Program-made: the position numbers and the translations under genes | Notes under the pieces: model-generated | What the model was told of the DNA's origin: nothing | What the model saw: only the letters and a program-made list of their open reading frames with translations | The model's database searches: none | Assembly: GCA_000467715.1 (NCBI GenBank) | Contig: AJFK01000377.1 | Location: forward strand, 1-64,000 | DNA length: 64,000 nucleotides | Direction: 5' to 3' | Source of the DNA: Hysterium pulicare CBS 123377 | Taxonomy: Eukaryota; Ascomycota; Dothideomycetes; Hysteriales; Hysteriaceae | Shown here: one piece after another, positions 15,122-45,964 of the stretch | How the letters are laid out: each line of letters opens with the position of its first letter | How positions within the stretch are numbered: the stretch's first letter is position 1

Positions 15122-16606
15122 ATGTCAAAACACCGACCACATTCTTCCTACCCAGAGTCTGAACTTGCAATTCTACCCCAGTGCCTCGGCACCAACAGCA
15201 ATGGTCTACAGTGTTTGAACAACCCCACAACCTACAAAGTTGGTGGGAGTGTCTTGAGAATAGACAGATGCCCGGCACATCGCAAGCAACCCGACGATTT
15301 TGTTGCTCGAGCTGAGGATGAGTTCAAGGTCATTGAAGAGCTCAACTCTGATGACGAGGTGCTTCCCAAACCACGAAAGTTGATCCACAAACGTTCCAAA
15401 AGCCTTGATACCCCTACTCTGCCAGAAGACCGTAAGCTCCGACGAAAGCCAAAGATGTTCTTCGACAAGGTTAGCTTACCAGCCTCCTCAGATGATTCCG
15501 GATCCCCAATGGAGATCGATACGGAATATCAAGCTTCCCCGGTTTATCGTTCTGCAAAGCACTGGCCATCCGAGCCAGAAGCCACACCTCCCGCCAACGC
15601 AAGGGCAAGGGGGTCTTCTAGCGTGTCCTTGGCAGGTCATAGAACCACCACCACTGACAAGAAGGCACAAGAGAAACTGGCGAACATGATCCGAGATATG
15701 TCCGTTGCCCTCCAAACTGAATACCGAGAAGAGATCATGCAGCTGCGTAATGAGCTTCGGCCAGAGATCAAGCAGCTCACAAGGACTGTGAAGGCAAGAG
15801 ATAACGAGATTCGGGCGATGAGGAGGCATATGGACTTGCAGGACGCTAAGATGTGTACGATTCGGGAAGGCACGGAAAACCTCCAAGGTCGCGTACATGA
15901 CTTGGAACAGCGACCCACATATCATCATCATCGCGAGAGGACTCTCCATGTTCCAGGGAGCTTTCCAGCACAAGCGGTCGGTACACCGATACGAACCGTC
16001 CCTCTCATCGACCTGCTTGAGGATTCTGAATCTGACAGCTCACACCACACCGCATCTACTGCCACTGAGTCGCCCAGTTACTATACGAGGCATCAAATCT
16101 CGTCACATCAAATCACCGACTCGGCTCCTGGGCCATCTTCAAAGGCTCGGATCTCCTCAAAGCCTTCTAGACACCCTCCTAGCAGCCGGCAAGGTAGCAG
16201 AGTCCAAATCGCCAAGGATTTCCGCTACTTTCCACAGTTTCCGTCAGAGAGACCAGAATTTGCCACTACGAATGTATTCAAAGAGTCTCGAAAGCACCCG
16301 CAGGCTCACCGGATCCCGTCTGAAGATGACTCTGATGAGGATCCTCGGTCGCCACGAAGACTTCCGTCCAAAGAGAAACACGGGGCCGAACAGCGTCAAA
16401 GTACCCGGCATATTCACGGTGTCCTGTTTGAGAATGAGAATGAGGGAGCTCCTGTATCGCCGCGGACACATCCCTCGAAAGGAAAGAAACCGGCTCAAAA
16501 GCACGCAAATACATCCTGGGCCGAGACTACTACTACCCAAAAGATGTCTCCCGAGTATATCCGTGAGTTGTTGGAAGAATACAACAAGTCAATGAGGAAA
16601 GGTTGA
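15122..16606 (+). CDS. Cys-finger/coiled-coil protein, family member 1 (SIM-bearing)
   Basis: Single exon of 494 aa from the ATG at 15122. The N-terminus has Cys21-Leu-Gly-Thr, Cys31, Cys50 and His53 (C-x9-C-x18-C-x2-H), a likely zinc-binding module shared with the genes at 27.3 and 35.1 kb and the broken copy at 44.8 kb. It resembles the C-x-[AG]-T...G..C...C-x2-H pattern I recall from Pfam DUF5763; I could not search this. Residues about 180-263 form a coiled coil (MQLRNELRPEIKQLTRTV). Residues 293-306 read VPLIDLLEDSESDS, a hydrophobic core followed by acidic/Ser residues as in canonical SUMO-interaction motifs. The remainder is disordered, Ser/Arg/Lys-rich and probably nuclear. Function is unknown. 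Confidence 0.75.
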   Translation: MSKHRPHSSYPESELAILPQCLGTNSNGLQCLNNPTTYKVGGSVLRIDRCPAHRKQPDDFVARAEDEFKVIEELNSDDEVLPKPRKLIHKRSKSLDTPTLPEDRKLRRKPKMFFDKVSLPASSDDSGSPMEIDTEYQASPVYRSAKHWPSEPEATPPANARARGSSSVSLAGHRTTTTDKKAQEKLANMIRDMSVALQTEYREEIMQLRNELRPEIKQLTRTVKARDNEIRAMRRHMDLQDAKMCTIREGTENLQGRVHDLEQRPTYHHHRERTLHVPGSFPAQAVGTPIRTVPLIDLLEDSESDSSHHTASTATESPSYYTRHQISSHQITDSAPGPSSKARISSKPSRHPPSSRQGSRVQIAKDFRYFPQFPSERPEFATTNVFKESRKHPQAHRIPSEDDSDEDPRSPRRLPSKEKHGAEQRQSTRHIHGVLFENENEGAPVSPRTHPSKGKKPAQKHANTSWAETTTTQKMSPEYIRELLEEYNKSMRKG

Positions 16607-17962
16607 GGGATCACGTGAGCGGGACTGTTTGTTTGTGTGTGTGAGTGAAAGGAGTCGGCGATGTAGGCATTTGGGTGAACCGCTTGCTATTGTTGTTGTC
16701 CTTAGTTAAAGGAGGGTTCATCGATGGTGGTGAGAATCTATCTTCACATTTCCATTTCAACATCCATGTTGTATGATCACCGCATATGGTGGTCGCGATA
16801 GTCTCAATATGGGTAACGAATTCAATTGCACGCTTACGCCAATCAAAATTGACGATGCGACTCCTACATGTCATGAAGTCCCCTTCCTTTGCCCATCCCT
16901 CCACATGAGGTTGCATTCTCGTAGATCGGAAATGGCGTTCTCGGTGTTCGCTCGAGCTCGCTACGAGGAACACGTCCGACATCCCTCCGACATTTCTTCC
17001 ACGCTTGCAGGGGCCACATAGCTCCATTCACCAAAGGCTCGATCTTTCATAAGCCGCCTTTTTGCGCCGTCTCTCTTGCTTCCACTGTTCGAGGGCGTTC
17101 TCAACTAGTCTGAACACCGCGTTCTTCAATCCAAACTCGTGCAACAGAAGTGACAAGGCTATCCAATACACTCATAAGCCATCATTACAGTTTCACTGGG
17201 TCTCTAATCATGGCGAAAAACATGGCGTTTTCACCCACGGGGAGGTGTCTCCTCGTAAGGCGGAATATAGAACGCGCTCTAATGCGAGACATCAAAGCGC
17301 CTCCCACACCAGCTTCGATTTGTCTTCCAATCAGCCGATATGTGTGCTCTACTCATGTACTTTCTAAAATGCCGACGGAGGCTTTTCCCTAACTGGGACT
17401 CTGTAGACCTCTTGGAAAGGCATCTGCCTCAATGTTGCATCATTTGATCTTGCGAGCTGATGCAAGACATCCGAGCGTCGTTCACACGAACAAAGAGCAA
17501 TTTTATTCACAGGACACGTGGGCTGTGATCCGATACAGAAACTCGGATAGTCTTGAAAAGAAACAAAGGGCTATCTTGACATATGCTGACAGCTGGTTTG
17601 ACATTGGAATTCGTATTGCCATTCCTGTCTTCCTCTTCGCTTTGACATATCTGACATCTGTTTGAATTGTTACAACTACCCCCGGTTACCTACTCTCGTT
17701 TTTGTAACTTCCAAAGTCCGTTCATCTCGTATTGTATACCAATGCATCGACTTATGATATGACTGCCTGCTGACTGCGTTCGTAGTATCATACCATTGAT
17801 TTCGGTGTTACCTTTCGAACACGACGAGCCTTTCCTTCATCCTTCCCATATCCATCATCACTATTTCGCGATTTCAACCATACTCCCTCACATTAACCCT
17901 TTCATCGCCGTCCGTATACTGCTCCCTTCCACGTACGTCTTCCTCAGATACCCTGTATCATA
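16607..17962. other. Intergenic, upstream of the first coiled-coil gene
   Basis: A minus-strand ATG frame at 16611-17027 (138 codons) overlaps the 3' flank of the previous gene. It lacks any family signature and is not called. From about 17290 onward, degenerate AGACATC..AGCG motifs occur. The block at 17459-17501 matches one upstream of the paralogous gene at 21.0 kb. The final 80 bases are pyrimidine-rich and include CCTTTCATCGCC, also shared with the paralogue's leader. Confidence 0.5.
17459..17501 (+). promoter_or_regulatory. Upstream block shared by the coiled-coil paralogues, copy 1
   Basis: The 43 bases here align to 20461-20502 with roughly 30 matches, including a shared GAACAAAGAGC. 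They lie 504 bp before the start at 17963; the partner lies 552 bp before the start at 21013. Conservation at matching distances points either to the extent of the gene duplication or to a retained control region. The factor is unknown. Confidence 0.45.
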
Positions 17963-19377
17963 ATGGCAATTCTACCTTTTCGGTTCTTTGGTCAATCTCA
18001 ATCCACAAAACCTTCCCCCAAGGCGCAAACTCCAACCGCGAAGGAGCACCCTCCATCTCCAGGTCTTTCAAAAGCCCGCCGCTTTCGAAATTCCTTGGGC
18101 GGCATTTCATTATCCCCCGGCAAGAGAGTCTCCTCCAGCAGTCCACTCTCTCTCAGCCGTCCACAGGAATCCTTCAACAATCCACTGGTCCCAAACCCAT
18201 TAGACTCCCTCAGCCATCCCCAGTCCTGGGATGATTACTTGAAACAAGTTCCTCTATCTCCAATGAGGAACCAGGAAAAAGAGGTTGGAGATGAAGCAGG
18301 AACAGGAGGGGGAAATGAAGAATTGATATCCTTACGCCAGAGAACTTGGAAGGATCAGAAAAAGATCAAGGAGCTGATGACAGAACTCCGCGAAAGCCAT
18401 CACGAGACCGAGAGCATCAAAATCGAATCTGTCAGGCGGGAGGCAGCCTTGAACTCGGAAACTCAAAACTTGTTGGCAAGAGAGAAGGCTGAAACAGACC
18501 GAGCACTTGAGTTAGAGAGGGCTCACATAAAACACAAGTCAGAGAAGGAGATTATGGACCTCCAGAAGCAGCTTCAGGATACTCAAGACGAGAATGAGGA
18601 ATTAAAGTCTGATAAAGAGAAGCAAGCTGAAGTGAAGAAGAGTCTACTAGAGCAGGCTCAAGTTGCAGAGCGAAAGTTGAAGGATCTGAATGAGCAGAAT
18701 ACAAGGTCTGGCTACAGGTATGAAGTCCTGATGGAGCTTCATTCTGGTCTGGAAGGCAAGCTAGACGAGAAGACGAGAATCATTGGTGGCCTCGAGCACA
18801 CTATCAAACTCTTGCATCAGGAACAGCATGAGCTCGGAAAGAAAGTAGACGACTGGACTGAAAAGATCGCGCAACTCAACCTCAAGAACATGGACCTAGA
18901 ACACCAAAACCGAGAGTTACAGGACACGCTTAAGGCGAAGGAGACGGAATTGAAGACGAACGAAAGAGCACTGAAGACACAAGCATCGAAAGCACAATCC
19001 GACAATGCACGTAAGGTCCAGAAGCTCATGGCCGAAGTCTCTAGGGAGAAGTCGCAGCGCGAGACATTGCAAGCGACAAAAGATATTTATCATAGAAAGT
19101 GGAATGAGATCAGCGCTAAGCTGCAGAATGTGGAGGCTAACATGGCTGAAACTATTGCGCAACGTGCCAATAAGATCAAGTCGGAGGAGCGGGCTGCATG
19201 CGAAGCAGAATATCGCAAAAAGCTAGTAAGTGTTTTCCCCATGTAATTCCATTGTAGCGATCTTACTAACAGAGTCAGGATGATCTTGACATCGGACAGA
19301 AAGAGGAGATCGCTTTCATAGCAAGAGAACGTAATGCCCTTGCTGCTGAACTTGACAAGCTGCGTGAGCGGCGATAG
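17963..19377 (+). CDS. Coiled-coil protein, tandem paralogue 1
   Basis: Two exons, 17963-19225 and 19279-19377, with a 53-nt intron (GTAAGT...TTACTAAC...AGTCAG), giving 453 aa. Residues 1-100 are disordered, Pro/Ser-rich and basic. Residues about 115 to the end form an almost unbroken coiled coil with no catalytic motif. The gene at 21013-22587 is a clear paralogue: both share a Y-E-x-L-M-E-L-x(5)-K-L-x-E-x(3)-I-x-G-L segment, a L-x-K-x(2)-E-L stretch further on, and an intron placed directly after a Y-x(2)-K-L motif near the C-terminus. A structural, filament or tethering role is likely from the coil alone. No named family is recognised. Confidence 0.8.
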
Positions 19378-21012
19378 AACAGCAGGTCTCTTTAGGTTTT
19401 AGGAGTTGGCGGGTTTTACTTCAAGGATAGACTGGTGACTTTCGGCATATGTACACATAAACCTCTTATGCACTAGTTTTGCCTTCACTTAAGTGTAGTT
19501 ATATCGCCCCTAACAAAGTCCTTGTTACTCTGGGAGTTATCACGCGTCGACCCAGTCATCCCAATCAATTCACACGTCCCAAATTTTTTCCCGGGATGCT
19601 CCATGCAGCTATCATGACGTCAGGGTCCCAAATATGAGCGATATTCATTACATTTCCTTCGATCCTCACAAGAGCCACATCCTTTGGCTGTTAACGACCT
19701 CGCCAAGCCGTCTAGAAACCGGCACGTCCATGGAAATTGAGGACGACCATGATAGCACTATTCTATTGCCGCCGACGTATACTGCCGACCGAAGACACTG
19801 AGCTGGAAGAGAGAAAAACGCGGTGTTTGGTAAAACTCCTAATATACTGGCGACTCCACTTGGGTTCATCCGTAAGTTCCTAGTAGACTGGAGGGTCACC
19901 GATATGTTTTAAAAGACTTGTGAGTAAAGTGGGAAGGACATTGGGATGGATCAAGATATAGTTGTTACTTTTCATACGAAAGATCACGTTTACGGTTCAT
20001 GGCTTTCGGTAACCGTCTACGATGGTCACGATAGTTACAACAGTCACACTTGACTAAGGCACACTTGTAGCAGACTTACAACAATCACGAGTTACGAACC
20101 AACTCCTACCTCTCGTGACGCCCAAGTTTCCCTTCATTTCGTGAGAAACCTTCTTCGAGATCCCTTCTTTCCTTTCTCTCCTACTGTTTCGTACCACTCT
20201 TGCATTCTCACACAACCTACGTTCTACTTGTCTTCCATACTACCATAGCGGCACAGCTGTACTGAATCAGTTTTTAGGCTAAATATAGAAGCGATAAGGC
20301 TGAAACATCCATTCGTTCATGAGACAATATGGTATGGCATCTTGACGCTGGCTGTCGCCTCCGTACGCGAGATTCTGCAGAGCTCTGGGGCGAGGTTTCC
20401 GAGCGTCTTCGTGATCATGAAGCTTTTTCTTTCAGCTAGGCCAAATATGTGCAGTATTCCGATACAAGCTTCAGAGCATCCTCCATATGAACAAAGAGCT
20501 ATCGTTGGGCCAGGCGAAACATGCGCCATACGCAAATATAAGACATCAGAGCGTCCGCCACATCAACACACACCTAAGTTCTGGTCGAGCAGAATCTGAT
20601 TCATCTGAATCAAGGCGTCAGAGCAGGTGCACACAAACAAGACTGTCTTGAGACGTCTAGACATCTGCCTAAGATTTTACCACCAATGCCTCCCTCTCTG
20701 CCGGTTGTTATAAGCCATCTGACTTCCACTCTAGCATCGCTACCTTTCATCACCTCGGCAGTCATTGAACACAGAACTCATTGGTAGTATGCTTACACCT
20801 CATTGGTTCCTACTTTGATCACCTACTTACCGTTCTCATAGTCGTAACCCTCATAATTGTCGAACGCAAGGACTCATCCCCTTCGTCCCTTCCATCCACC
20901 TTAACTACTACGAATATCAACGATTCCCTTTGAACTCACTGCTTCTCGAGCCTTTCATCGCCATACACATTTCACTCCATTCTTTCCCCCATTTCTTTGG
21001 ATCTCTGATACT
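19378..21012. other. Intergenic between the tandem coiled-coil paralogues
   Basis: No gene is supported. From about 20460 to 20660 there are three spaced motifs (TCAGAGCATCC, CATCAGAGCGTCC, CGTCAGAGCAGG) about 70 bp apart, looking like a worn tandem repeat. One of them is the block shared with the region before 17963. The last 110 bases are C/T-rich and contain CCTTTCATCGCC, the same leader element as in the upstream paralogue. Confidence 0.5.
20461..20502 (+). promoter_or_regulatory. Upstream block shared by the coiled-coil paralogues, copy 2
   Basis: This is the partner of the block at 17459-17501, placed 552 bp before the start codon at 21013. It carries the same GAACAAAGAGC core and sits at the head of a worn repeat with a period of about 70 bp. 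It is either a relic of the duplicated promoter or a conserved control site. Confidence 0.45.
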
Positions 21013-22587
21013 ATGTGGAAAGTCTTTGGATGGCCCCTAGGTCAATGCGCTGCTCAGAACACGCTTCATACGAACGAGGACGGCCAACCGCTCTCGCCTA
21101 GCTGTCCAAAATACATCCGCTGTGGATACCCCTCCGACCTACCAAAGCCCCCCGACCAAACGGAATCTCACGCTCTTTCGGAATCCTCCAGTTCCTCGAA
21201 TTCCCCCGGCTCTGCGAGCTCTCCCAGCTTTTCAGAATACGATACCTCTCCAGAATCTCCCGACCTATCAAAGCGGCCGTCTCGCTACTCGGGACACATC
21301 AAGTTTGCTACAAAGCCCACTCGGAGTCAGCAAGAGGTAGCGGGAAAAGAATTCACGGAAGCAATGTTGCAGCATGACTTAGATTACCTGCGCCAGCAAA
21401 TTTGCGATGACCGGGTGACGATTGAGAATCTCAAGGCAAAGATTGAAGAGGTTGAGCACGAAAAGGAGAAGGTCAAATCGGATTATAACATCCGGGAGGC
21501 GGTGATGGACAACGACATCAAGAATCGGGAGGCAATCATGGACAATGAATTCCAGAATCACTTACGAAGAAAAGAGGCCGAAATGGAACATATGCTTGAG
21601 CTGAAGAGGGTTGAGTGGAAGCACGAGTCTGAGAAGCAGGTTGATGACCTTGAGAAGCAGATTCAAAAGATCCGGGAGAAGAATGAGGAGATGAAGACAG
21701 TATATGAAGGGGTCGGGGTGCAGTACCTCCGTCAGGTGAAGACTGCGGAGCTCAAGTATGAGCACCTAATGGAACTGTACGTCCGCATGCAACGCAAGTT
21801 GGAGGAGCGATACGAGACAATCGTTGGGCTCAGCAAGGCCATTGAAGACACTAATCGCAAACATAACGAACTCGACCCAATCGATAAGGAATGCAACGAC
21901 AAAATACAGAGAAAACGTCAGAAGATCCACGAACTCAAGCGGAGGCTTGAGGGACTCAATCGCCAGTGTTGGGATTTGGAAACCACGAAATTTGGACTTG
22001 AACATGACGTTCGTGAACTCGAGAAAAAGATCCGGAGAGCGGACCAGGCCAATGCAAAGCTCGAAAAAAAGGTTCAGGAAATTGAACATGACAACCTCAA
22101 ACTTACAGATAAGAACCGAAGTCTGCAGAGCTTGTTGAGGTCGAAGGGGATAGAGTTGATGGAGATTGAAGACAGGCTGAAAGCATCCGCACGGACGGAA
22201 ACTTCTGACGATGAGCCCGAAGCAGCCCAGATAGATCAGCTTATGGCGAAGCTGGCATGGTCAGAAAGCAAGCTAGAAGAGGTAGAGCATGCATTGGTCT
22301 CAGAGAAGGAGGCAAATGGTCATCTGGAGGAGAGTTTGAAGGAGCTCAAGAAAGCATATGATATGCAAGAAACTGAGAAGAGGGCCTTGGAGGACGGTAT
22401 GGACTCGGCTATTGCAGAATGTCTTGAGGAGGCGAACCTCCAGGATCGCAACCTTGTCTGGGAAGAATGCAAACGGGAATACGAGGCAAAATTGGTAAGT
22501 GTTCATCTCACCTCCTTCTCAAGTAATGCTCTGGCTAATTCAAGAACGCACATTCAGCACTCCTGGCTTCAGCAGCGCAATGACTGA
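21013..22587 (+). CDS. Coiled-coil protein, tandem paralogue 2
   Basis: Exon 1 is 21013-22494. A 63-nt intron (GTAAGT...CATTCAG) leads to exon 2 at 22558-22587, giving 503 aa. The intron is a multiple of three with no stop, so an unspliced mRNA would also read through to the same stop as 524 aa. Residues 1-110 are Ser/Pro-rich with a few cysteines, and residues about 115-495 are a continuous coiled coil. Its paralogy with the gene at 17963 is shown by the shared Y-E-x-L-M-E-L motif and the identical intron position after a Y-x(2)-K-L motif. It has an acidic insert (TSDDEPEAA) absent from the partner. Function is unknown. Confidence 0.8.
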   Translation: MWKVFGWPLGQCAAQNTLHTNEDGQPLSPSCPKYIRCGYPSDLPKPPDQTESHALSESSSSSNSPGSASSPSFSEYDTSPESPDLSKRPSRYSGHIKFATKPTRSQQEVAGKEFTEAMLQHDLDYLRQQICDDRVTIENLKAKIEEVEHEKEKVKSDYNIREAVMDNDIKNREAIMDNEFQNHLRRKEAEMEHMLELKRVEWKHESEKQVDDLEKQIQKIREKNEEMKTVYEGVGVQYLRQVKTAELKYEHLMELYVRMQRKLEERYETIVGLSKAIEDTNRKHNELDPIDKECNDKIQRKRQKIHELKRRLEGLNRQCWDLETTKFGLEHDVRELEKKIRRADQANAKLEKKVQEIEHDNLKLTDKNRSLQSLLRSKGIELMEIEDRLKASARTETSDDEPEAAQIDQLMAKLAWSESKLEEVEHALVSEKEANGHLEESLKELKKAYDMQETEKRALEDGMDSAIAECLEEANLQDRNLVWEECKREYEAKLVSVHLTSFSSNALANSRTHIQHSWLQQRND

Positions 22588-24964: not shown

Positions 24965-25723
24965 TTATACACCTTTTGGACTTGATCCCAGTTGGTGAGA
25001 AGGTAGCTGATTATACTGCTCAGCCAGTATTACGCGTCGGAGATTTTTTCTCTCAGACGCAACATCAAACACCTCATTTTCCTCGAAATTGACCCGGACC
25101 GGTCCGACTGGATTTTCTCTCACTCGATGAAACAGTTCGCGCATAACCCAACACACAAAAGGACCGCAGTCACTTCCTCCATCTTCCTCAGCTCGGGCTG
25201 CATTGGGTATGCAGACAACATCGAGATCAACGTGGGCTTGAAGTGAGATCATCTTGCAATATTTGCGAGCTGTTTCGCTTTCATCCCCGTCAATGGAGCC
25301 GTAGTAATACGCGGTTTTCCGACGCATGTCTACGAATAGACAACTCCAGTGAATACCGCTGTCTGGGCTCATCTGGGTCAATGAAGTGTTGAGGTGGGGA
25401 TCCCAGCTATTCAGAACGGCGAATACCCAGTCGTGTTTGTAAAAGTGCGGCCCCTGCTCCAAACACTCCTGGGCATGTTCCATATCGAAGATGTCCAACG
25501 CCTTGGAGGCTCGCCTTACCATCTCCGACATTGATGGCAGGACAAAGAGTACATTCGCTTGCCCAGCATCTGTACCGATGTCCATGTGGAATCGAGACTC
25601 AAGGATCATCACGAAGAGGGTGATGGCGGTATCATTGTACCAGGACTTCACAGAATCGAAATCTCCTCGATAAAATGCCAGTCTTCTGGAGTAATTGAAT
25701 ATCCACGCGGTGGAATCAGCCAT
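24965..25723 (-). CDS. Ulp1-like (C48) cysteine-protease homologue, probably divergent or inactive
   Basis: Single-exon minus-strand gene of 252 aa from the ATG at 25723. The fold signature of the Ulp1/SENP family is clear: SWYNDTAI near 27-34 (the family's W-x-N/D-D-x-x-I), GIHWSCLFVD with His125-Trp126, and DGGSDCGPFVC with Cys186. Aligned by eye to yeast Ulp1, where the catalytic Asp is 17 residues after His and the oxyanion Gln six before Cys, those positions are here Gly142 and Glu180. Asp145 is nearby and might substitute. If real, the protein may bind rather than cleave SUMO- or NEDD8-like modifiers, or be a rapidly evolving protease. Length fits a bare protease domain. Confidence 0.8.
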   Translation of the reverse strand: MADSTAWIFNYSRRLAFYRGDFDSVKSWYNDTAITLFVMILESRFHMDIGTDAGQANVLFVLPSMSEMVRRASKALDIFDMEHAQECLEQGPHFYKHDWVFAVLNSWDPHLNTSLTQMSPDSGIHWSCLFVDMRRKTAYYYGSIDGDESETARKYCKMISLQAHVDLDVVCIPNAARAEEDGGSDCGPFVCWVMRELFHRVRENPVGPVRVNFEENEVFDVASERKNLRRVILAEQYNQLPSHQLGSSPKGV

Positions 25724-27267
25724 AGTTTCCTTGATGATGTTAGCCCTCTTCCCACTTCAGTTTCATTACTTCCACTTACTCCTTGAGATGGAGGAGATGA
25801 CGATAAATGCGATTCGATGTCTTCACGTTGATTGGAAGGGATGATACGATTGCCCGGTGGTTATATGGAGCTTTGAAAGAGAATGGGATTTTGAGGGGTA
25901 TGAAACTCTAAGGAGATGGAGTTTCGGAGGGAATAGAGATTTGGTGGTGGAATATCGACGGAGGAGAAAGAGATTTGGTGGTGGAATATCTTCGGGTAGG
26001 GACGATGTACTCATAAAAAGCCATTTAAGTGGCATCTGAGACAAATGTGGTTCCTGAGTCAGATCAAGAAGGGCACGGCGAGACCATATATGTTGGTTTG
26101 CAGAAGGACTGAGATGGTAAGCGAGAACCCAGGGACTGGGCCTTCGTACTCAGGGGTATCATGTCACAGGGCCGTGCATGTATCCTTACCGCATCAGCAC
26201 ATTGGCAGGACATGGGTTCTACGAAGCTAGTGGCTAATGACTGCCTGGAAAGATCCCGCGAAGGAACAGCAGAGTTCGAAAGTAGATACGTGTATGTGCT
26301 TTTACCCCAACCAGGAAGCTTGATGCCGATATTGTTGATCCGACGAAATTCGGCGGCGGCAAGATCCGGGACTACTGTGTGCGAAGCCGAGTTCACGTTG
26401 CGGAAGCAGCGCCGTGAGTCTGTGGCGTCGAACAAGGAGGACAGTCGCAAGTTAGGAGAGACATATACACATTTGTTAGGCTTCGAAAGCCCATCTCGTA
26501 CTTAGATCCGCCCACACGAGGCTGAGCAATTGTAAGTTCCAGCTCAAGCAAGCTTGGGGCGCGGTACAAAGTAAGATTAACATGGACTCGCTCTGGTCAT
26601 CTGAAGGTAGAGTTCAAGAAATAGTGCGGAAGCTGTGTCTGCTAGTTTGCTTTCGCGTTTAATGCCGTATACCTGGCAGGTTTGTTGGGACACTTCCGAA
26701 AGGCGGACTCAACACCACGCCAAGCATCACGATTTCTGGAAACTATCGGCCCCACCACCACCACCATACAGTCCAAATGTACCGGAGTCTGCATAGTACA
26801 GATTCAATGAATCTGCGATAGGCTTGAAACTATTTACCCATTCCGATCACTACTGTAGTTCCGATCAACAGCACAAGCATAAGCAGTCTTGATCGCCCTC
26901 AGAGAAATCGTCATGATAAACTAATTACAATCGGACAATCATAACATATCAGGTTGAAAGTTAGAGTGGAGTTGCCCCATGTAAATGCAAGAACTGCAAG
27001 GAAACAATGTTGTTTCATATGAACAACCCCGTTGACATTACGGGAAAGAAAAGAAAATGCACAAGGAGGTCAAGAAAAGTATATGCAGCCCGGAATGCAT
27101 CACCCCAAACGCCCACCGACCCCGAGATATCACCAAAGCGGACGCCCCGTTTGCCATCAACAATGATTCAACATCGTCGTCGCCTTCGAGTAGCACATGC
27201 TGAACCTGGGTCTCCACAAGAGGTAAGCATGAGAAGAAAAGAAGTCATTGGACTGACGAACTTACAT
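25724..27267. other. Intergenic
   Basis: No supported gene. A plus-strand frame at 27007-27309 (100 codons, basic) overlaps the 3' end of the following minus-strand gene and is not called. Bases 25860-26000 contain short GGTGGAATAT repeats, with GAGATTTGGTGGTGGAATAT occurring twice about 55 bp apart. Confidence 0.45.
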
Positions 27268-28131
27268 CTAGGACTGTCCACTACTCTTGGGAAGAAACCT
27301 TTTGCGTAATGCTTTCGAAATACTGGACTCTGTAAATGTGGTGTTCTTGATAGCTACCATCTTTTTCGTGAATGTTGATGATTGTTTTCTGTCGAGCAAG
27401 CCTTCCATCTGCTTTGTCAGCTCATTAATCTGCTGTTCTTGAATGAACTTCATGCGCTCGAGCTCCTCGACACGCGCCAGTGCCACGCAATGGCTTTCTG
27501 CGAATTGAACGGATATGGCGTCCGCGATGGTTTGGCCTTCCACCAAATTCGCCAATGTCGTATCGTAGTCGCCTGTGGTATGGAGCCAGTTTTTAAGAGG
27601 CTGCACCTCGGTGAGCCTGTGCAGCTGTCTGTCGACTAGGTCGCTGCCTAGCACAAGGTCTCGCGCCGTCCGGTCATGGACCGTAAGTGTGGCCTCGGTC
27701 TCCGTCAAACTCGGCGAACGCGTCCTAGGGGAACGCGAGGGCTGACTAGACGAGCGTGGAGACTTGTGGCGAGCGAAATCAATAGCTGGAGATGACCCAA
27801 GCCGAATCCTAGAGTCGTATGGGGAAGTACTCTTTCCACGACGATCATTGCGGCCGTACTCCTTGATTGAGTCATCGGAATCATCATCGGTGGTGGGCTC
27901 GACCGGAACGAAGGAGACGCGCGACACACGTCGGGTTACGTGAGGTTGATTCTCGGTTGTCTCTCTTACATCCTCGAGACTGTCATCCCCAAAGTCACTC
28001 TGCTGCGTTTTATGTAAATGGCACCGCTTCAATTCCGTTGAATCTGATCCCCAAACAGGATGTTTGGCGCCCAAAGAGCACTGAGTCTTCCCGTCCAACT
28101 TGGTTCCCAGACAGCGCGGCGCGTATGACAT
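27268..28131 (-). CDS. Cys-finger protein, family member 2
   Basis: Single exon, 287 aa from the ATG at 28131. Cys7-Leu-Gly-Thr, Cys18, Cys37 and His40 give C-x10-C-x18-C-x2-H, the same module as in the genes at 15.1 and 35.1 kb. Residues 73-88 include a hydrophobic core followed by TTDDDSDDS, weakly like a SUMO-interaction motif. Residues 100-150 are Ser/Arg/Pro-rich. Residues about 205-250 form a short coiled coil (RVEELERMKFIQEQQINEL). The C-terminus is basic (LRKRFLPK). A strong GTAAGT donor lies just after the stop codon, so a 3'UTR intron is possible. Likely nuclear; function unknown. Confidence 0.72.
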   Translation of the reverse strand: MSYAPRCLGTKLDGKTQCSLGAKHPVWGSDSTELKRCHLHKTQQSDFGDDSLEDVRETTENQPHVTRRVSRVSFVPVEPTTDDDSDDSIKEYGRNDRRGKSTSPYDSRIRLGSSPAIDFARHKSPRSSSQPSRSPRTRSPSLTETEATLTVHDRTARDLVLGSDLVDRQLHRLTEVQPLKNWLHTTGDYDTTLANLVEGQTIADAISVQFAESHCVALARVEELERMKFIQEQQINELTKQMEGLLDRKQSSTFTKKMVAIKNTTFTESSISKALRKRFLPKSSGQS

Positions 28132-35075: not shown

Positions 35076-36566
35076 ATGAGCGCCTCGCAGAGAGCTCAAT
35101 GCGGAGGCACCACAAAGGAGCGGAGACGGTGTTTGAAGCAGGCCAATCATCCCACCAAAGGAGGAGACCCAGATAAAATCAATAGATGTTATCAGCATCG
35201 CTACCAGGAGAACCAATTCCCGTGGTTCGACGAAGAGGACTTGATGTCATTCACGGAGCCGGACAATGCTAGTACACCACGCACTAAGCAGCCGAGGGTC
35301 GAGTCCGCGTTCGAAGACTCCGACATCGAGGTACCGCGTACGCGAAATGTGTCAACAGCGACCTCAATTCCGCAGTCCCAACATACCCGCACGCCAGCAA
35401 GGGAGCAGCAGCCGGTGCAACGACGAAATGAGACATCGGCTCGTTCCCTTTTTGGACCCGAAGAGCCTGCGCCCAGTGTCCTAACGGATGGAGAGGAAAC
35501 AGACGACGAGCCAGTGCAGCCGACGCGGAAGGAATCAGCCAGACCTTCCATTCCAAACCGAAAGCAAACCCGGCAGTTTGAATCGCAGCGACCGCAGTCA
35601 AGTCGGACTGTAGAAGCCAAGCGACCGACTTTCATGTCCAGTCAAGCGGGTGAACACCGTCGAAAATCTCCAGCAGATCTGCTTCCGGGTCAACCCGTCA
35701 CAATTGAGCCGTTTCGTTTGCAAAGCCCTCCTATTCTTCGAGGCCACTTGCCTCGAAAGGCAGAGAATGAGCGCAGACGTGGCCGCGGCCGGTCAAGCAC
35801 ACCAGGACCATCCCCAAAGCCAAGGCAGAGCAGGGCTGAGAGCGTGCCAGGAATGGAACCTGTTGCACAGAAGGAGTTTGCTCTGCTCGACAAGAGCCGA
35901 CAGTCCCGCGAACTCGCCTATGGGCCTGAGCTTGCGCATCTGCAGGACTGCAAGCTCTTGGAAGGGCTGAAATTGAAGCAGTACATGGCCAAGTACCACC
36001 AGGGACAGGAGTCGATTGGGATGAACATCGACGATCTTGAAGATGAAAACGTCCTCACTAGGAATTCAATCTTGGCGATCCTAGACCGTCTGACGGTGAA
36101 CGAAGGCATAGATAGCCAAGTTGCAGATGTACTTTGCAGTACCCTGGCGAGGTTAAACCGCACGGAGGAAAATGTGGAGCACCAAAAAACACAAATGCAC
36201 CGTCAAGAAACAACAATGCAGCAGGTGCTGAACAGGTTGAACAATATGGATCTTGAAAGTGGCAAGCGCTCCAGAGACGATAACGGTTCTACGAATGATG
36301 GTATTGGAGAGATGAGCGTTCCTCGCTTGAAGGAGTTTCTGAGGAATGAGTATCTGCCAGCTTCAGAGGAGGACGACAGTGACGATGAGGATGAGAGTGG
36401 GGATGAGAGTGAGGATGAGAGCGAGGATGAGGATAAGGAAGAGGAAGAGGACGAGTGGGGTGGAAGGGGAAGGCGGAAGGGGAAGGCGAAGGTCAGGGGA
36501 AAGGGGAAGGAGAAAGGGAAGAAGAATGGGAAGGAGAAAGCGAAGGGGAAGAAGGGTCGTCGTTGA
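35076..36566 (+). CDS. Cys-finger protein, family member 3, with acidic/basic tail
   Basis: Single exon, 496 aa from the ATG at 35076. Cys9-Gly-Gly-Thr, Cys19, Cys38 and His41 give C-x9-C-x18-C-x2-H, as in the 15.1 and 27.3 kb genes. Residues 60-290 are disordered and rich in Arg, Ser and Pro. Residues about 295-400 form a conserved helical region (SILAILDRLTVNEGI) ending in a coiled coil, which is also readable in the broken copy at 44.8 kb. Residues about 429-458 are almost all Asp/Glu, and 459-496 almost all Lys/Arg/Gly, a tail like those of histone- or nucleic-acid-binding nuclear proteins. Function unknown. Confidence 0.75.
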   Translation: MSASQRAQCGGTTKERRRCLKQANHPTKGGDPDKINRCYQHRYQENQFPWFDEEDLMSFTEPDNASTPRTKQPRVESAFEDSDIEVPRTRNVSTATSIPQSQHTRTPAREQQPVQRRNETSARSLFGPEEPAPSVLTDGEETDDEPVQPTRKESARPSIPNRKQTRQFESQRPQSSRTVEAKRPTFMSSQAGEHRRKSPADLLPGQPVTIEPFRLQSPPILRGHLPRKAENERRRGRGRSSTPGPSPKPRQSRAESVPGMEPVAQKEFALLDKSRQSRELAYGPELAHLQDCKLLEGLKLKQYMAKYHQGQESIGMNIDDLEDENVLTRNSILAILDRLTVNEGIDSQVADVLCSTLARLNRTEENVEHQKTQMHRQETTMQQVLNRLNNMDLESGKRSRDDNGSTNDGIGEMSVPRLKEFLRNEYLPASEEDDSDDEDESGDESEDESEDEDKEEEEDEWGGRGRRKGKAKVRGKGKEKGKKNGKEKAKGKKGRR

Positions 36567-37358: not shown

Positions 37359-38722
37359 CTATGTGCGAAAGACTCAAACCTGGATATGCTAAAACATTGG
37401 TGAATATATATATTTGTTGATGGAGCAGCTGAGCAAAGTGGCTGAAAACTAATACGTGATCGAATACTGCGACGCTAGGATATAAGCCTCAGGAATCATT
37501 TTGCAGGTAAGTTCCAGAGCTCACACCTGGCACGATGGATGATATAGATGCCGGATTGAGTAGTGACGATATAATGATATATGCTCGAAGTCAATCTTAT
37601 ATTTTTCGTTCGCTCAGTATCGGAGACTGCAGATGAGAGGCGTTGTTCGGCAGCGAAAATGGACATACTTGAGGTCGAAACATGGCAAGGGCTGCGATGG
37701 ACTTGCAGGTGGTATTCAGAGATCGATTAAGTGGCGGAGTGTCAGGTGTGTCTCCCTAGTACCGCCTTTCGCAACAAGAGATCGAAAGCATTAACAAATC
37801 CACCGTCCCATTACGGCATAGGGTCTTTATGGCGTTCAAGAGCGTTGGTTATGAATGCGACGGTGCCTCAACGGGGACCAGTGATGGAGAAAGTGAAGCT
37901 TAGTAGTAGAAGATCATCATACCCATATCGACCTTTCTAAAAAAGTCGTAGTACCGGTAACCATCAAGTTACTCGGAGGCAAAACACTTGTCGAGTCATT
38001 ACCGGAACCCGGATAGTCGTTCTTCATTGTTTCGCTATCCTGAAGTTTCTTGACATGCTCTTCTCGAACGGGTACGCTACCTCCTCAAATAAGAGACATA
38101 ACCGACCATGGTGTTGAGGTCGAAGCCGAAGCCAATGTCCATTTTCACCAAATTGGGTGCATCCCATATCGTAAGACTTTTAGATACGGACATCCAGTTG
38201 TTATCGAATCTGTGCTTCGTTGAGTTCCTGAAAATGTAGGTCCGCAACCGAGCCAGCGTCTTATCCCCCTTTTAATAAGCACATACTTATCATGACTGTT
38301 GGCAGCGGTAGTGAAGCTGAAGAAGAGTTTGGTAAAGCTCAACCACGCGTAAGCGGTGATTACATCAAAAATTCCCGCAGTAAAGCTGAATTGGCAGGTA
38401 AAAATCTTCGATGGAAGAGGAAATACCACGTATCCAATGAAAAAAGAGCTTGAGAACATGGTCCGAAAGTACACCTGGATACGAATTGACTCTCAACATC
38501 ATTTTTTTAGTAGTTAGGGGGCTGACGTAGCCCAGGCGGAGAGTATAAAAAGTCTAGATGAGGACGTCCAAAAATTGTGAGTTTATGAAGGGATTCAGGT
38601 GCGCTTAGGTCGCGATATAGTACACATACAAACATATCCGATGGGTGTATAAGAAGACGGAGTCGCGTGATGATGCAGGCTGCATGCATGAGACAACCTC
38701 ATCATCTTAGTCGATCAGATGT
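37359..38722. other. Intergenic
   Basis: No gene is supported. Bases 38315-38375 share about 45 bp with 43805-43865, with the common core CTCAACCACGCGTAAG. In 38315-38375 one + frame reads like protein (EEEFGKAQPRVSGDYIKN), so both may be scraps of one old gene. Confidence 0.4.
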
Positions 38723-39198
38723 GGGAGCACCAGTGCTGCAATGCAGTGGAGCTACTGGAGCGATCCATATGGAGGCAAGGTTTTGGTGGATTGGATTACA
38801 GGGTTTAGATTTATGGATTGGATTAGATTAGACCTTGCTGGCGCTCTTAGAGCTTTAGGATCCTTATCTTGTTCTTAATATATAGCAAAAAAAAAAGGCT
38901 TAAAATAGAAGAAAAAGCTCTATTTCAAAAAAAAATGCATGAAAGATAAAAACTAAGGTGTAAAAAGAGGTTTAAAAGAATAAATATAAAATGTCTTTAG
39001 TACGTAATTAAAATATATGCTAAGACTTACTATTTTTAAATATATTACTACTCTGTTGGATACCGCAGATAACGTGGATTTAGTCTCAAAATTTTAGATT
39101 TAAATTGTGAATTAGGTGGATAGGGTGGATAGGGTGGATAGGGTGGATTTCACGGTAAATCTACTTTAATCCACTCCATTGCGACCACTGGGGAGCAC
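38723..39198. mobile_element. Non-autonomous hAT-type element (MITE)
   Basis: The element spans 38731-39190 (460 bp). Its ends are imperfect inverted repeats: CAGTGCTGCAATGCAGTGGA at the left, and the reverse complement of the right end reads CAGTGGTCGCAATGGAGTGG. It is flanked by a perfect 8-bp target duplication, GGGAGCAC, at 38723-38730 and 39191-39198. The CAGTG start, short terminal repeats and 8-bp duplication are the hallmarks of the hAT superfamily. The interior is AT-rich with no transposase frame, so it would need a transposase supplied elsewhere. It contains a short 9-bp tandem repeat near its right end. Confidence 0.88.
39115..39150 (+). repeat. 9-bp tandem repeat inside the hAT element
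   Basis: GGTGGATAG is repeated three times with a fourth variant unit (GGTGGATTT), close to the right terminal repeat. Subterminal repeats of this kind are often transposase-binding sites in hAT elements. Here that is inference. Confidence 0.75.
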
Positions 39199-42100
39199 AA
39201 AGGATAGATCGTCAACCGCATCTATTTGTATCCACCTTGCAGAACTCAAAATTCTTCTTCTTCGATATCAACATGTGTGACTCTTTACCGTTTTCCTAGC
39301 CATTCTATCCCTCCTCTAAGTATATTTATATACCACACCAATTCCAAGCGCTATCGTTTCGATCCTTGATTGGCAGCCTTTTCCAAAATCGGCGATTCCA
39401 CGACCGCACTGGAATCTAGGAAGACGTTATTTGAGTTGCATAAATCCGCATTGCGGTGCTCGGCGATGGGTGGGATGGCGTTGAATGCTGGCTTCCATCT
39501 TTTCGCTGGCCCAGACCATTGATGTCCTTTGTTGAGATATCCGGTTCCTTGTGTATCGCTGTTTGTGAGACAGCCGTTGTTTGTCCAGAGCGACCCCGAT
39601 AGCTGGATTATTTGCCCTCCAATAGCCTCATCCCTCTTGTGCTCTAGTTCGTCATCCTGAATGGGCTACCTAAATGTTCTTGCCACAAGTGCCAGCATCT
39701 CTTGTTCTGAGGAGTCGCCAAATTACGCCATGAAATGTTCGAAGTCGCTTGTATTTGGTCGTATGAGATGGACGCTGTATTCGTTTTGGGCAACGTGGCT
39801 GGTTTTGGATGAAATTCACTTGGTTCCGCTGTAAGCTCCTATCCGTGTAATTCAAGTCAGTGAATATCTCTTTCCCAGAATGCCCCACTATAACGAGCCT
39901 ACTCTAAAGCGGCAGAGAGCGATTCATCCGGGCCTTCAGAGGCTACGAAGTATAGGGTGCCGTGGATTGATCAACTTGCACCAAGGGAGTACTCGCTTAC
40001 TGAGTTCATCTTCGATGACCAGGCTGTTCTGGGCGCGCTATCAGGGAGGTCCTAAGAACCACATGTACCCGCCCATCAATTGAGGCAGGTGATTAAGGAA
40101 TTTCACCTGAGCAGCTTTTCGCATCGACGGCGCATGAAATTATGCATCACCCTTCCCAATATATGTGTTCCCGTTGCCCAATTTCGCTTCAACCTCAACA
40201 AATCGGTCGAGGGGTTCTCGAAAGCCTCCGGAGAAAGCGAGGATGGAGGTTTCCCCAGCATCTACATCATATCCTCAGTCGCTTAGCCTAACACATGCTT
40301 GAGTATGTCCATGATAATGTGCGCATGAGGTCATGGTAGGATGGGATGGGGAGGTTCGACGTACTAGAGATAGCATTATGGTTAGCCGTCACTTGGAATT
40401 AGCGTTGGAGCATTGGCCTTACATACGGAGCTGTCCCAGAAGGCTGGTGTTCGAGGGGGCTCCGACGCGTAGTCTATTCGATGGGGCTGGTTTCGTGGGG
40501 TAAGGCGCGCGTGCAGCGATTCACTTCCTCAGGAGCGGGAGAAGAGGGCTTGAAATGGAGGTGGGGATGGAAACGAATGTCAAGATCGCTCGAGTGGCAA
40601 CCGGGGTTTAGAATCGTCGAGACTGCTGCTTCAGCAATTGGAAGTCGTGATGTTTTTGATGAAATATTCCAACCCACGCGCCATGATATCTCAACCGCAT
40701 ATATATTTCAACTTCGGAAGCTATGACAAGACCATGCGCGACCGAGCGGAATGTTCTGGATTTGCGACACTCATGTAATCCTATACCCGGATTAACATCA
40801 TGATCATTAAATGTTATAGGAAGGTGTCTGAATCCTGCTGTCGGATCTCCATTACGAATTCGCGTATACTATGCGATAGTATGCGAGCTTTTCACCGACA
40901 ACCATGATGAACCAAAACCAAGGTTGCTGAAGATACCCAATACCACCTTTCAGTCGACCGTCGATCATCCTGGGTCTTTAGCCGCGAATCTCAAACAATG
41001 TTGCGAAAGCAAGGAGAACCAAGGATAAGTCGGCTGGCATTTTGAGATGCTTATTTCATATCTGCAGAGAAATCCTAGCATTGATGCTAGCCTAGTCTTT
41101 TGAGAACGTTTGTACCCAGCTTCTAAGATTATCTGTTGGTATTTACAAATAATCTGCATTTCGGGCGCGTTCCTCCACGTAGAATCTCGTAGGCATCAAC
41201 TGCACTGCCCTTGAAGCTGTCCCACTCGAAGTACTCGAGAATAAGTCTGGCGATCGTTTGTAGTCGAGTATGTTCGTTCTCATAGTGGGGTAAATAAGGC
41301 GATAATAGACGACAAATAGTGGTAGTGAGAGGTCGTTGAATGAGTTGAAAACTTAAAGGCTGAGGCTCCATTTTGGGGCTCAAGAAATTGATGGAGAGAA
41401 TATGGAGAAAGGACCTTTGCTCGGACGACGGCGGCGAGTCTGCGTGTGTAACATTACTAAGCTTGAACAAGAGTGCTGCAAAGCCGCTTGTGGTACATAC
41501 CTAGGTAGATCTCCAACCAGCAACATCTCTTCCAAGAATGATACGGTCGGACGTACAACGACGTGGAAAGACGGTTGGTTCAAAATTGAAATGAAGCTTG
41601 AAAAGATTGATATGTATATCTACTAATATTTCTCCTTCCAGCATTGGCGTCCAATCCCTCCTCTTCGTTCCTTGTAGCCTCCGAACCGATAATTTCAACC
41701 ACTTCACTTCCGACACGAAAGACACTATATACCACCATAGCAGTTCTCTTCTCCATTTCGAAAAGCCTCATCACAGTCTCTCTACTAGCAATCTTTCGTG
41801 GCAACTCGAGTCGTCCGAATCATACCCACTACCAATGACCTGTATTCTTGGCGAAACTTGCAGTCCTGGTCTGGCATTGTCTGCTGGTCGTCGCGGCCCG
41901 GACCGCGCGTGCTGGTGGACAAGGAGATATTTCGGGCCTCGTGAAAGTCCTGGTGGAATGTGAGCAAGGATGGAATACAAGTCGGCTAGAACAAGATAGG
42001 ACGAAAGAGGAGCAAAGATTTCGGAGATTGGGAAACGCAATGCCGATTGGGGGTTTCTTCGCGCATCTTATTGCCACGCGTTGTTATGCTCCAGCGGAAG

Positions 42101-44794
42101 TCCGGAACGTTGTCGATCTACAAAGGCTCAGCGAAGGGTGGCATGGGCGATGGTCAACATGACTTCCTGGAAGGTTAGAAAGTAGCAGGGGCGAGCTGAT
42201 CGACTTCCACGTCCAGGCAGCCCTGGAACAGAGTCATGAGATGCATGGAGGTTTACATGTTTCTGGAACGCATTTCATTGCCCATTCCGAAACTCTGCAC
42301 CTTGACAACACACTTTCTTTTCCCACACTAGCTAAGGTCGCCAGTTTGAGCAGCCGCAACTTTTCCCTGAGCTGAGGGCGAGTATCTCCATGGAGCGAGT
42401 GAGCATGCCCTTGAGTATAGTTGTCAGCGGAGTTTCTACGTATCAATCCAGCGTACACTATAGATACCCACCAAACTCGCCAGCCGACCAGTCTTTTGCG
42501 CCAAATTCCGCCATACTAAAGTCATAACGCAAGTTCTCATCCCTCGGTGGAGATTTGACACCGCTATTCCCACTCAATTTTGACAATATGCTATTCCTCA
42601 AAACCTTTGTGGAATTCAATGGAATGGAGATCTCGGGGAGAGAGGAACGATGCTCAAGATGGTCGAATAATATCGTCTACTGGAGATGGAGTTTCTAAGG
42701 GAAAGGCTCATGTGTATATAAAGAGAAGAGGAACTTGTATGGTATTTGGGATCACATTATCCACCGTCGAAGCTGACATCCGGAAAATCTGTCGGACTTA
42801 CCTCCCAACATTGCCGCCCTAGATGTCTTCCTCATCAATTATACGCCACCCACTCTACTCTTTTTTCCACCACCTATCCTGTCTCGCATTTCTACTTTAC
42901 AATGATAGTTCTTTGGCAAGATTCTTTACGATTATTTCGCTTCAACATTGAGGGAGGGTTTGCAAGAGTTTGAAGCTACACGATCAAGGAAAGTTGGACA
43001 TGATGTTGATGGAAAGTTTTTTCCTATCCATTGACAGTGTCGAAGGATAGGTTCATCCTTATCCGTCGACAGAGTTAAACATACTACCTCATCCCGGAAC
43101 GATCGAATCGGGACAGGCTTCCTATAGTGAAAAGCTAGATACAAGCACTCCAATACGATACTGTTGCCAGTCTTGCGGTATCCCTCACACTTCTCTAACA
43201 TAACCTCCCTCGTGCACTCCACCTGTACCCTTCGTTTATCTTCATTATGGTTCCTATTTTTCAGATGACGGTCTTCTAATCAACCGAGCTCTGGAGATTC
43301 AAGTTTCCAAGAAAAAGCGGACAAAGCATAGAGTGAAATTAGTTAAATCAAAGCCCAAAACCAACAAAGTTACGTAACCATACACTCGGCCCTCAAAACA
43401 GGATAGCAATAGATACAGTCTAGAAGCGTTAGGCCAATGGCGAGAGTTCAACTCCTGCTGATTGCTCCGCATCCATTCCATCGGCGTTAAAGCCCCCCGA
43501 CCATCGTGAGGTCCATCTTTGCTTTCTTCACCAAGTTATTCATCAAGTACTCCACCCACGCTACTGCCTTCGCTTGATTCAAGTATTCGTGTCAGATGCC
43601 GTCCAATATCCCCAGCAGGTTTCAAAGGCGACGTGCATCAGCGTGCGACAAGCTGCGGAGTTGGTGGTTTCCGTGCTATAGATTGGAAGTTATGGCTCCA
43701 CCATGGCGGAGGAGTCATGATTTTGGTGGTATCCGCGATCGTGAGATGGCTTTGATACGGAGTTGCGGTTGTGCACTGACTGGCATTGACGACGCCTACT
43801 AGTGTCGCGGAAGAATGAAGAAGAGTTTGATTAAACTCAACCACGCGTAAGAGGTGATTATATTTAAAGCTCTCATTCATGGTTGATTTCATTGAATTCG
43901 CGGAAGAATGCTCTTGGTGACGTATGGGTATAGCTTGATTTCAGGGAGGAAATTAAGCTCTTCCTAAGAGGTACTTTTCTTCATATTATACGATGGCTCA
44001 GGTCATTCCAAAGAAGCTGAGCTTTTGAGAAGATTGGAACTGTGGCGGAAAAGGAAGCCGCGGCTCAGGGGAGCCGATTATTGAGAGCATTTCAACTACC
44101 TCTGCGGATGTGACACACATAATACTGACAAGATATTATCCCTTATTTACCAGGTCAGCTTCATATAGGTTCAAATTAGCCCACTCTTCACTACAACAAA
44201 CATCCGTTCACAAACAAGAATAGCCAGTTCGAAAGCTTCACAGTAGATGTTAACCTCGAAGTCAACAAAAGTAGAATAACTCTTCGCCTCAATGCTACAC
44301 GCAAGTATAACTCTTGATCTGCAAACAGCATCCTGGGGTCTCTCCCGTATTTCACAGATATCATCAACAGTGATGGCTGGTGTGGGGGACCTCAGCTGTA
44401 TAGATGTCTCATTCGTAGAAAGGGGTGCCATTTTTAGACCAGAGTGTAGGACTGAAACAAACTTGCGCTGAGCGTGGAGATATGAGATGCGCATTCTTTT
44501 GAGGTGCTCTCCTTAGGTGGGATCTCGTCATTATGTTTCCGGACGTCTTGGGGCTGCCTCTCTCAGGTACAGATGGCATCGAGCTTGCGCTTCGGAGACC
44601 ATACTGGAGCATCGGGAGGTGAGGAGGGAGAGTAGGTTTCTGGTAAGGCGGAACTCAGCCAAGAGCGAACGTAATCATGGAAAGGGAAAGTTATGGGAAG
44701 GGCGCTAGGGTTTTGTTGTTGTTGATGGTGATTTGTCGGATATGTGAGTAAAGCTGAAACCTATCGATAAGAGACCGTGCCAAGCCGACGGAGA
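39199..44794. other. Long gene-poor stretch with decayed coding scraps
   Basis: No intact gene is supported over 5.6 kb. Protein-like but broken segments occur on the minus strand at about 39350-39650 (containing GGQIIQLSGSLWTNNG), on the plus strand at 39905-40050 (containing KYRVPWIDQLAPREYSLTEF), and on the minus strand at 41129-41371 (ATG at 41371, 80 codons, with LILEYFEWDSFKG) and 41640-41815. They belong to no family I know. I suspect several collapsed genes. Confidence 0.4.
43805..43865 (+). repeat. Short dispersed repeat shared with 38315-38375
   Basis: GAAGAAGAGTTTG, then CTCAACCACGCGTAAG, then GGTGATTA occur in the same order and spacing in both places, with scattered differences. 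The pair are direct copies about 5.5 kb apart on either side of the hAT element. Confidence 0.6.
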
Positions 44795-45964
44795 ATGCTT
44801 GGTGTAACATCCCGTATTCCTCTAGGGACTTTTTGCAGCGTTTCAATGTTCAAACAAGGCCTCGTATCCCACGGCGGGGAAAGACGAAAATATCATCAAC
44901 CGATGTCAAGTTCATCGGGGCCAGGTGGATGATCATCAACAAGATCGACGCAGTTCAGATGCTGAGCCGCAAGCAGCCAGCACACGCGCCAAAACGCCCA
45001 CATCGAAGACCAACAAGGTCGAGAGTCCGGAGCCGGAGTATGAGAAAGTTCATACTGTTCGAAAACACCACTTGAAGACCCACGCTTCAATGCCAAAGCG
45101 GTCCGTGGAACCTGAGTACGAGGAGCCTCGGCAGAGTCGAAATCCCCGAGAAGTCGGAAGAGGAAACCCGTTAGCGGCGAAGACGTTCAACGCCGCATCC
45201 GAGATCTAGAGGTCGGCTATCTGAGGAAGAGTTGGATACGGAGGACGAGGTCATCCGCTTAGGCTCGGTTATGGTCCAAGTTCAACCTTGCAATCTGAAG
45301 CATCCTCCGATCCTCCAAGGATTCCTTCCGCGCCAGCAACAAAAGGAGCGGCATCGTTCACAAGGTCACTCCAAGACTCCTGGATCTACTACGTCAACGC
45401 AGTCGGCGCACCGAAGCATATTCCGAGAACGAGACGGCTCTCCTTGAGAGGAACCGGCGGTCGCGCAATCTCACCATTAGGCCCGATCTATCAAAGCTCC
45501 AGAGGCGCAAGATCGAAGAAACGATTCCGCTCAAACAGGCCGTGGCATACTACCAATCCAGGTCCGACCCCGAAGCTTCCCCCCAGGAGAAAGTGGCCAT
45601 GAATGCAATCCTATCCACCATGGACCGAGTGACAGTGAACGACGGTGTCACTATGCAACATGGAGAAATTCTTTGCAGCATCCAAGCGAGACTAAGCGAA
45701 CTGGATGGCCAGTCGGGAAGATGAAGACGTTGGCGATACCGGTTCGCAAGATGATGACGTCACAGGCGTGAGCCCGAAAGATTTGAAACAAATGCTGCGT
45801 AATTACTATTTGCCGGCGAACAAAGAGGATGATGATGATGAGGATGAGGAGGACAACGACGAGGGTGCGGGGAGAAGGAATCGGAAGGGCAATGGTAAGG
45901 ACAAGAAGATGGACAAGAAGATGGACAAGAAGATGGACAAGAAGATGAATAAAAGGCGTTACTG
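44795..45964 (+). pseudogene. Broken Cys-finger gene, family member 4 (paralogue of 35076-36566)
   Basis: Collinear pieces of the 35.1 kb gene are spread over several + frames. Near 44815 a PLGT segment stands where the intact genes have CLGT or CGGT, so the first Cys is lost. Then a piece with Cys-x18-Cys-x2-His appears in another frame (ending INRCQVHR, compared with INRCYQHR). Further on are PPILQGFLPR (PPILRGHLPR in the intact gene), ILSTMDRVTVNDG (ILAILDRLTVNEG) and YYLPANKED (EYLPASEED), followed by an acidic run and a Lys-rich tail. At least four frame changes or stops separate them, so the gene is dead. The tail has expanded into four DKKM repeats. Confidence 0.85.
45900..45947 (+). 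repeat. 12-bp tandem repeat, four perfect units
   Basis: GACAAGAAGATG is repeated four times without change, encoding DKKM in the frame of the broken Cys-finger gene's basic tail. The lack of divergence suggests expansion after or near the time of inactivation. Confidence 0.92.

Follow-up and report, generated by a model that had tools for sequence, protein, structure and literature searches.

Does a short cysteine/histidine module that recurs at the N-terminus of several proteins on one fungal contig mark a gene family, and what might such proteins do? We address this question for positions 1 to 64,000 of contig AJFK01000377.1 of Hysterium pulicare CBS 123377 (GenBank assembly GCA_000467715.1); this whole stretch of 64,000 nucleotides is referred to as the window. 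The module belongs to three intact genes and one decayed copy (c1 to c4), which, judged from their sequences, are diverged local paralogs by common descent and lie on both strands. Copies c2, c3 and c4 form a core subfamily, and c1 is an outlier tied to this core by the module alone.

The window was searched in six frames with a pattern that allowed 5-9 residues after Gly-Thr and 14-24 residues for the second gap. The search returned three matches, in which the gap after Gly-Thr is 6 (c1), 7 (c2) and 6 (c3) residues and the second gap is 18 residues in 3 of 3. Copy c1 (15122..16606, plus strand) is an intact single open reading frame (ORF) of 494 amino acids with the module core C-x-G-T-x6-C-x18-C-x2-H at 15182..15280 (plus), followed by a body with coiled-coil-type matches at approximately residues 180-265. 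Copy c2 (27268..28131, minus strand) is likewise an intact single ORF, of 287 amino acids, with the core C-x-G-T-x7-C-x18-C-x2-H at 28012..28113 (minus), as is c3 (35076..36566, plus strand; 496 amino acids), whose core C-x-G-T-x6-C-x18-C-x2-H lies at 35100..35198 (plus). Copy c4 (44841..45962, plus strand) is decayed; alignment resolves it into four c3-homologous pieces in different frames, and of the module it retains the remnant C-x18-C-x2-H (44841..44915, plus). An earlier note on this DNA had described three intact genes and one broken copy with an N-terminal Cys/Gly-Thr/Cys/Cys/His module, forming a local family on both strands, with a second gap of exactly 18 residues everywhere. The ORFs, the pattern search, the profiles described below and the decayed c4 agree with this description, and the gap is 18 in the three intact modules and in the c4 remnant; the four-residue module, however, survives in the broken copy only as C-x18-C-x2-H, the C-x-G-T half being absent there.

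Chance coincidence of motifs was ruled out by residue shuffles and by leave-one-out profiles. In 500 rounds of shuffling over the 1688 six-frame fragments of at least 25 amino acids in the window, the pattern with its second gap fixed at 18 occurred 0.0 times per round (3 observed), and the looser C-x9-11-C-x18-C-x2-H occurred 0.122 times per round (3 observed). A profile built solely from the three intact modules matched the c4 remnant at E = 1.3e-8, with the next-best window fragment at 0.76. Profiles built from two modules each recovered the omitted c1 (5.3e-6), c2 (1.8e-7) or c3 (9.2e-8) and, every time, also the c4 remnant (E 2e-6 to 1.5e-7), the next fragments having E values of 0.38, 1.3 and 1.1. 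Because each omitted member is recovered, the modules are taken as homologous rather than as a coincidence of motifs. All four copies thus have a homologous N-terminal module, and four is the number of recognisable family copies in the window at the sensitivity of these profiles. Conservation extends beyond the pattern first described, to C-x-G-T-x(6,7)-C-x9-G-x7-R-C-x2-H-[RK]-x-Q-x3-F; ten residues (C, G, T, C, G, R, C, H, Q and F) do not vary among the three intact modules, and from the second half the c4 remnant still has C, G, R, C, H and Q. Strictly fixed spacing is confined to the second half, since the first gap varies by one residue (C-x9-C in c1 and c3, C-x10-C in c2).

The view that the rest of the proteins is barely alignable holds for c1 only, and alignments of the c2, c3 and c4 bodies contradict it. 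Copies c3 and c4 match in four collinear pieces that extend from the module as far as the charged tail, with z-scores of 9.6, 10.7, 21.5 and 10.7 (300 shuffles each); the second and third c4 pieces overlap on c3 residues 219-257, so that the third alignment is probably forced in part. In addition to what the earlier note described, c2, c3 and c4 have in common a second domain, detected by alignment and shuffle test, which lies within 27337..27711 (minus) in c2, where it is predicted to be helical, 35826..36275 (plus) in c3 and 45380..45721 (plus) in c4. The comparisons c2 with c4 (z = 9.8), c2 with c3 (z = 5.9) and c4 45299-45721 with c3 (z = 24.2) were each matched by 0 of 2000 shuffles, and 16 columns, including one cysteine, are invariant across the three copies. 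Shuffling destroys helix periodicity, so that the z-scores of helical pairs are somewhat flattered; a useful control is c1, likewise of coiled-coil type, which scores approximately zero (z -0.5 to 0.5 for its body against the other copies) and in which the shuffle test detected no second domain. The invariant cysteine of the second domain (27337-27711 minus, 35826-36275 plus, 45380-45721 plus) is separate from the N-terminal module.

A C-terminal motif at 36297..36368 (plus) of c3, followed by an acidic and then a Lys/Arg-rich tail, is common to c3 and c4 (z 13.1). Outside this pair the motif is at best suggestive, with shuffle fractions of 0.042 (c2/c3), 0.053 (c2/c4), 0.028 (c1/c4), 0.71 (c1/c3) and 0.276 (c1/c2); neither c1 nor c2 scored meaningfully against a profile built from the tails of c3 and c4, and a motif in all four copies is not claimed. 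The Ser/Arg-rich linker between the module and the helical segment is probably disordered. A full-length structural model of c2 had a mean predicted local distance difference test score (pLDDT) of 54.8 and was confident only at about residues 211-250 (block means 83-96); helices were predicted for residues 142-160, 163-185 and 191-263, and the part containing the module scored below 50 for residues 1-36.

The long confident helix of this model would also suit cytoplasmic coiled-coil scaffolds, such as components of the hyphal cytoskeleton, the septum or vesicle adaptors, with the zinc module as a protein-protein docking unit. Sub-threshold coiled-coil-type matches in c1, for example ATG16 (E = 0.026), and the two further local coiled-coil-type paralogs that adjoin c1 point the same way. 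The coiled-coil matches are below their cut-offs, however, and likely compositional, and the Lys/Arg-rich tail of c3 and c4 would fit nucleic acid or nuclear import better; we consider scaffolds of this kind unlikely. The two adjoining genes (17963-19246 and 21013-22587, both plus) match each other with 26.5% identity over 422 amino acids (E = 1e-17) and make up another pair of local duplicates next to c1; their match is perhaps partly one of coiled-coil composition.

Database searches gave no convincing Pfam, NCBIfam or PDB match for the family proteins, and the module profile had no match in PDB. The sub-threshold Pfam matches of c1 (ATG16 and others), the NCBIfam matches of the bodies (a collagen-binding adhesin and others), the PDB matches to coronavirus spike helices (E at least 0.081) and the Pfam matches of the second domain (E at least 0.017) were all judged to reflect helix/heptad composition. 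The strongest database match was PHROG phrog_21263 (function unknown, 940 positions), which matches c3 at E = 3.1e-4 and the c3 second domain at 3.5e-5; the second domains of c2 and c4 had no match to it, and because only one of three copies is matched, it is taken as unproven and not as kinship. The coiled-coil stretch of c1 is matched by phrog_12423 (E = 0.0066). Scans of viral contigs, prokaryote genomes and phages (whole c1), seeded by short peptide patterns and hence liable to miss distant kin, gave no confirmed relative, and matches of the c3 module to four plasmid sequences (E 0.5 to 10) were dismissed as noise. A literature search returned no description of such a module: DUF5763 and the CXGT and 18-gap spellings tried were absent, as was CX18C among the matches listed, and the spacing CX9CX10CX2H was present. 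A family that Pfam lacks, such as this one, may nonetheless be common among unnamed fungal proteins.

In c4 the first half of the module is missing. Across the three plus frames, the region 43801-44850 contains neither C-x-G-T nor a stop-free C-x9-10-C, and the cysteine near 44795, where the earlier note had placed the broken copy, is separated from the remnant by two stops. The splice-acceptor-like sequence TTTTGCAG stands directly before the remnant. A hidden 5' exon was considered and rejected for the 1 kb upstream, which has no C-x-G-T on the plus strand; given this acceptor-like sequence, a distant 5' exon is possible but unlikely. At the later two frame changes in c4 the space appears too short to hold an intron. 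Repeat-induced mutation was rejected as the cause of the decay, since the usual dinucleotide indices gave a sign of it in 0 of 32 segments of 2 kb. Between c3 and c4, synonymous divergence (dS) is 1.12 to 2.40 and nonsynonymous divergence (dN) 0.41 to 0.74, and in all four aligned pieces dN is the lower of the two; since dS is saturated or nearly so, the ratio is indicative only. Because dS is this high, the duplication is, on these estimates, old rather than recent. The c3 and c4 proteins have probably been under constraint, and the decay of c4 would have come later.

What the module might bind is suggested by its residues. Its three cysteines are among four in all in c1 (3/4) and c2 (3/4) and among five in c3 (3/5), and so few cysteines outside the module are as expected if those within it are kept as ligands. 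The cysteine counts, the fixed second gap and the likeness to known modules of three cysteines and one histidine (C3H) speak for a metal site, and the four residues most likely bind one zinc ion in an atypical C3H finger, C-x9/10-C-x18-C-x2-H. As metal binding is presumptive and the predicted module fold is poor, the module might instead be conserved for a role without metal, for example in disulphide formation or redox chemistry, or as a short linear interaction motif. Three cysteines and one histidine with an invariable second gap, the scarcity of other cysteines and the resemblance to known C3H-type modules all argue against such a role, which we consider decidedly improbable.

The pattern had been likened to DUF5763, and DUF5763 (PF19067) was the only Pfam match of the modules, for one of the three (c3; E = 0.089, 12.7 bits versus a cut-off of 26.3). 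Profiles of the kind proposed in the earlier note recovered the omitted copies and c4 in the window; Pfam yielded DUF5763 below threshold only. A set of phage modules was collected with a consensus typed by the analyst, which gave 97 records; nine were fetched, one of these was dropped as out of frame, and eight were used, so that the set is self-chosen and mostly not certified DUF5763. When the nine stretches were compared with Pfam, one passed the DUF5763 cut-off, one passed the zf-TRM13_CCCH cut-off and three had no match (including the dropped one); the remaining stretches had only sub-threshold matches to DUF5763, TRM13_CCCH, WRC, C3Hc3H, WRKY19 and a few others. The DUF5763 cut-off was thus passed by 1 of the 8 members used, and the short models of the DUF5763/TRM13_CCCH/WRC/C3Hc3H type shade into each other. 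Comparison of the phage set with the window modules (hhalign) gave a score of 18.8 over 19 first-half columns (single-comparison E = 5.3e-4), whereas 200 column shuffles of the phage set averaged 8.6 and never exceeded 15.1. This result supports a likeness to DUF5763-like modules and is no proof of descent; the proposed resemblance is retained as a first-half likeness beyond shuffles, seen by Pfam in one of three modules and below its cut-off. Neither phage T4 nor any of 14 control genomes gave a DUF5763 match, so that this search was uninformative.

Similar short Cys/His modules in phage genes, one of them in a consensus-matched gene annotated as HNH endonuclease (though the matched stretch is without a Pfam family), would be compatible with an orphaned zinc module of mobile-element origin that was retained after loss of the enzyme and spread by local duplication; the first-half resemblance and the dispersed repeats present in the window can be read in the same way. 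We regard this origin as quite improbable, as no nuclease, recombinase or transposase domain was found in the three proteins or in 20 further ORFs (E <= 0.01), the second domain of c2, c3 and c4 is their own, and no repeat was seen flanking a single copy. The repeats comprise an inverted dispersed pair outside the outermost family copies (7721-7924 and 46907-47107, 76% over 204 bases) and further short repeats at 38318/43816 and 46750/51849.

We tentatively favour the reading that the family consists of nuclear, coiled-coil, nucleic-acid- or chromatin-binding proteins with a C3H-like zinc module, which may quite possibly be correct. The proposed architecture comprises an N-terminal zinc module of approximately 45 residues, a Ser/Arg-rich linker and a helical or coiled-coil segment, with an acidic and then a Lys/Arg-rich tail at the end of c3 and c4. 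The helical segment would form dimers or higher oligomers, and the zinc module would contact DNA, RNA or a partner in chromatin, with further, non-specific contact from the charged tail; the net role would be that of a nuclear nucleic-acid- or chromatin-binding factor. Zinc binding, oligomerisation, nucleic-acid binding and nuclear location are properties that we infer for the family proteins. Several points weigh against this reading. Structure prediction of the module from the four-sequence alignment was of low confidence (mean pLDDT 53.9, predicted template modelling score 0.35), and because the module is not confidently folded, convergence of the ligands is presumptive. The body of c1 does not align with those of the other copies, and the dN/dS comparison suffers from the saturation described above. 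No module reached the curated DUF5763 cut-off, c1 and c2 had no match at all to this model, and the likeness is limited to the first half (hhalign probability 30.8%). The WRC, TRM13_CCCH and C3Hc3H models had no match to the modules up to E = 10, with filters dropping most matches above approximately 0.1.

Among the neighbouring features, a Ulp1-type C48 peptidase (24968-25756, minus; E = 2.7e-6) lies on the strand of c2, approximately 1.5 kb downstream of it. A DUF3716 domain (PF12511; function unknown) is encoded at 59022-59369 (minus; E = 3.1e-18); DUF3716 is a fungal family, which agrees with a fungal origin of the window (nothing was found that contradicts it), and its name was absent from the literature search. 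Overlapping ORFs at 2349-4105 (plus) resemble the SUZ12 zinc region in one stretch and JmjC in others, none of these matches reaching its Pfam cut-off; together they are perhaps one spliced or decayed gene. An open frame of 1284 codons (9441-13292, plus) has an array of 123-base tandem repeats near its start and lacks a Pfam match at E <= 0.01. Neither tRNA genes nor matches to Rfam were found in the window.

Fungal genomes contain many unannotated, fast-diverging gene families, and a family such as this one is of a kind taken to be frequent there. It is conceivable, if somewhat unlikely, that the copies belong to an undescribed, lineage-restricted fungal nuclear family of diversified nucleic-acid-binding regulators, marked by a novel class of C3H zinc module with a long second gap, C-x9/10-C-x18-C-x2-H-[RK]-x-Q-x3-F, and with fast-diverging helical bodies. 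A compact profile of module and second domain can make the family countable and datable in fungal proteomes. Should the module prove to be a C3H zinc unit with a long gap, the class of small Cys/His modules, with relatives named in phages, plants and tRNA-modifying proteins, would become wider.

Among the closest known modules, zf-TRM13_CCCH (PF11722) and zf-C3Hc3H (PF13891) are short Cys/His modules of similar appearance, the former cut-off being passed by 1/9 and the latter model weakly matched by 3/9 of the phage stretches; the window modules match neither model, and the three proteins are without an enzyme domain. The DUF5763 and phage modules resemble the family in the C-x9-C first half (c1 and c3) and the closing C-x2-H, and differ in the second gap, which is 9-10 residues in the eight phage examples versus 18 in all four copies. 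The glycine three residues before the second cysteine, invariant in the eight phage examples, is present in c1, one place further in c2 and replaced by arginine in c3. WRC (PF08879; plant GRF/HRT proteins) is described, in the excerpted text of PMC7380329, as an atypical C3H finger, C-x9-C-x10-C-x2-H, reported to bind DNA. As described there, it has the first gap of c1 and c3 and the closing C-x2-H, whereas its second gap is 10 instead of 18, and its model has no match to the window modules. Because the second gap is 18 here, we do not assign the modules to WRC or DUF5763; going by that excerpt, the WRC spacing is the nearest described, and the window modules correspond to this spacing with the second gap lengthened to 18.

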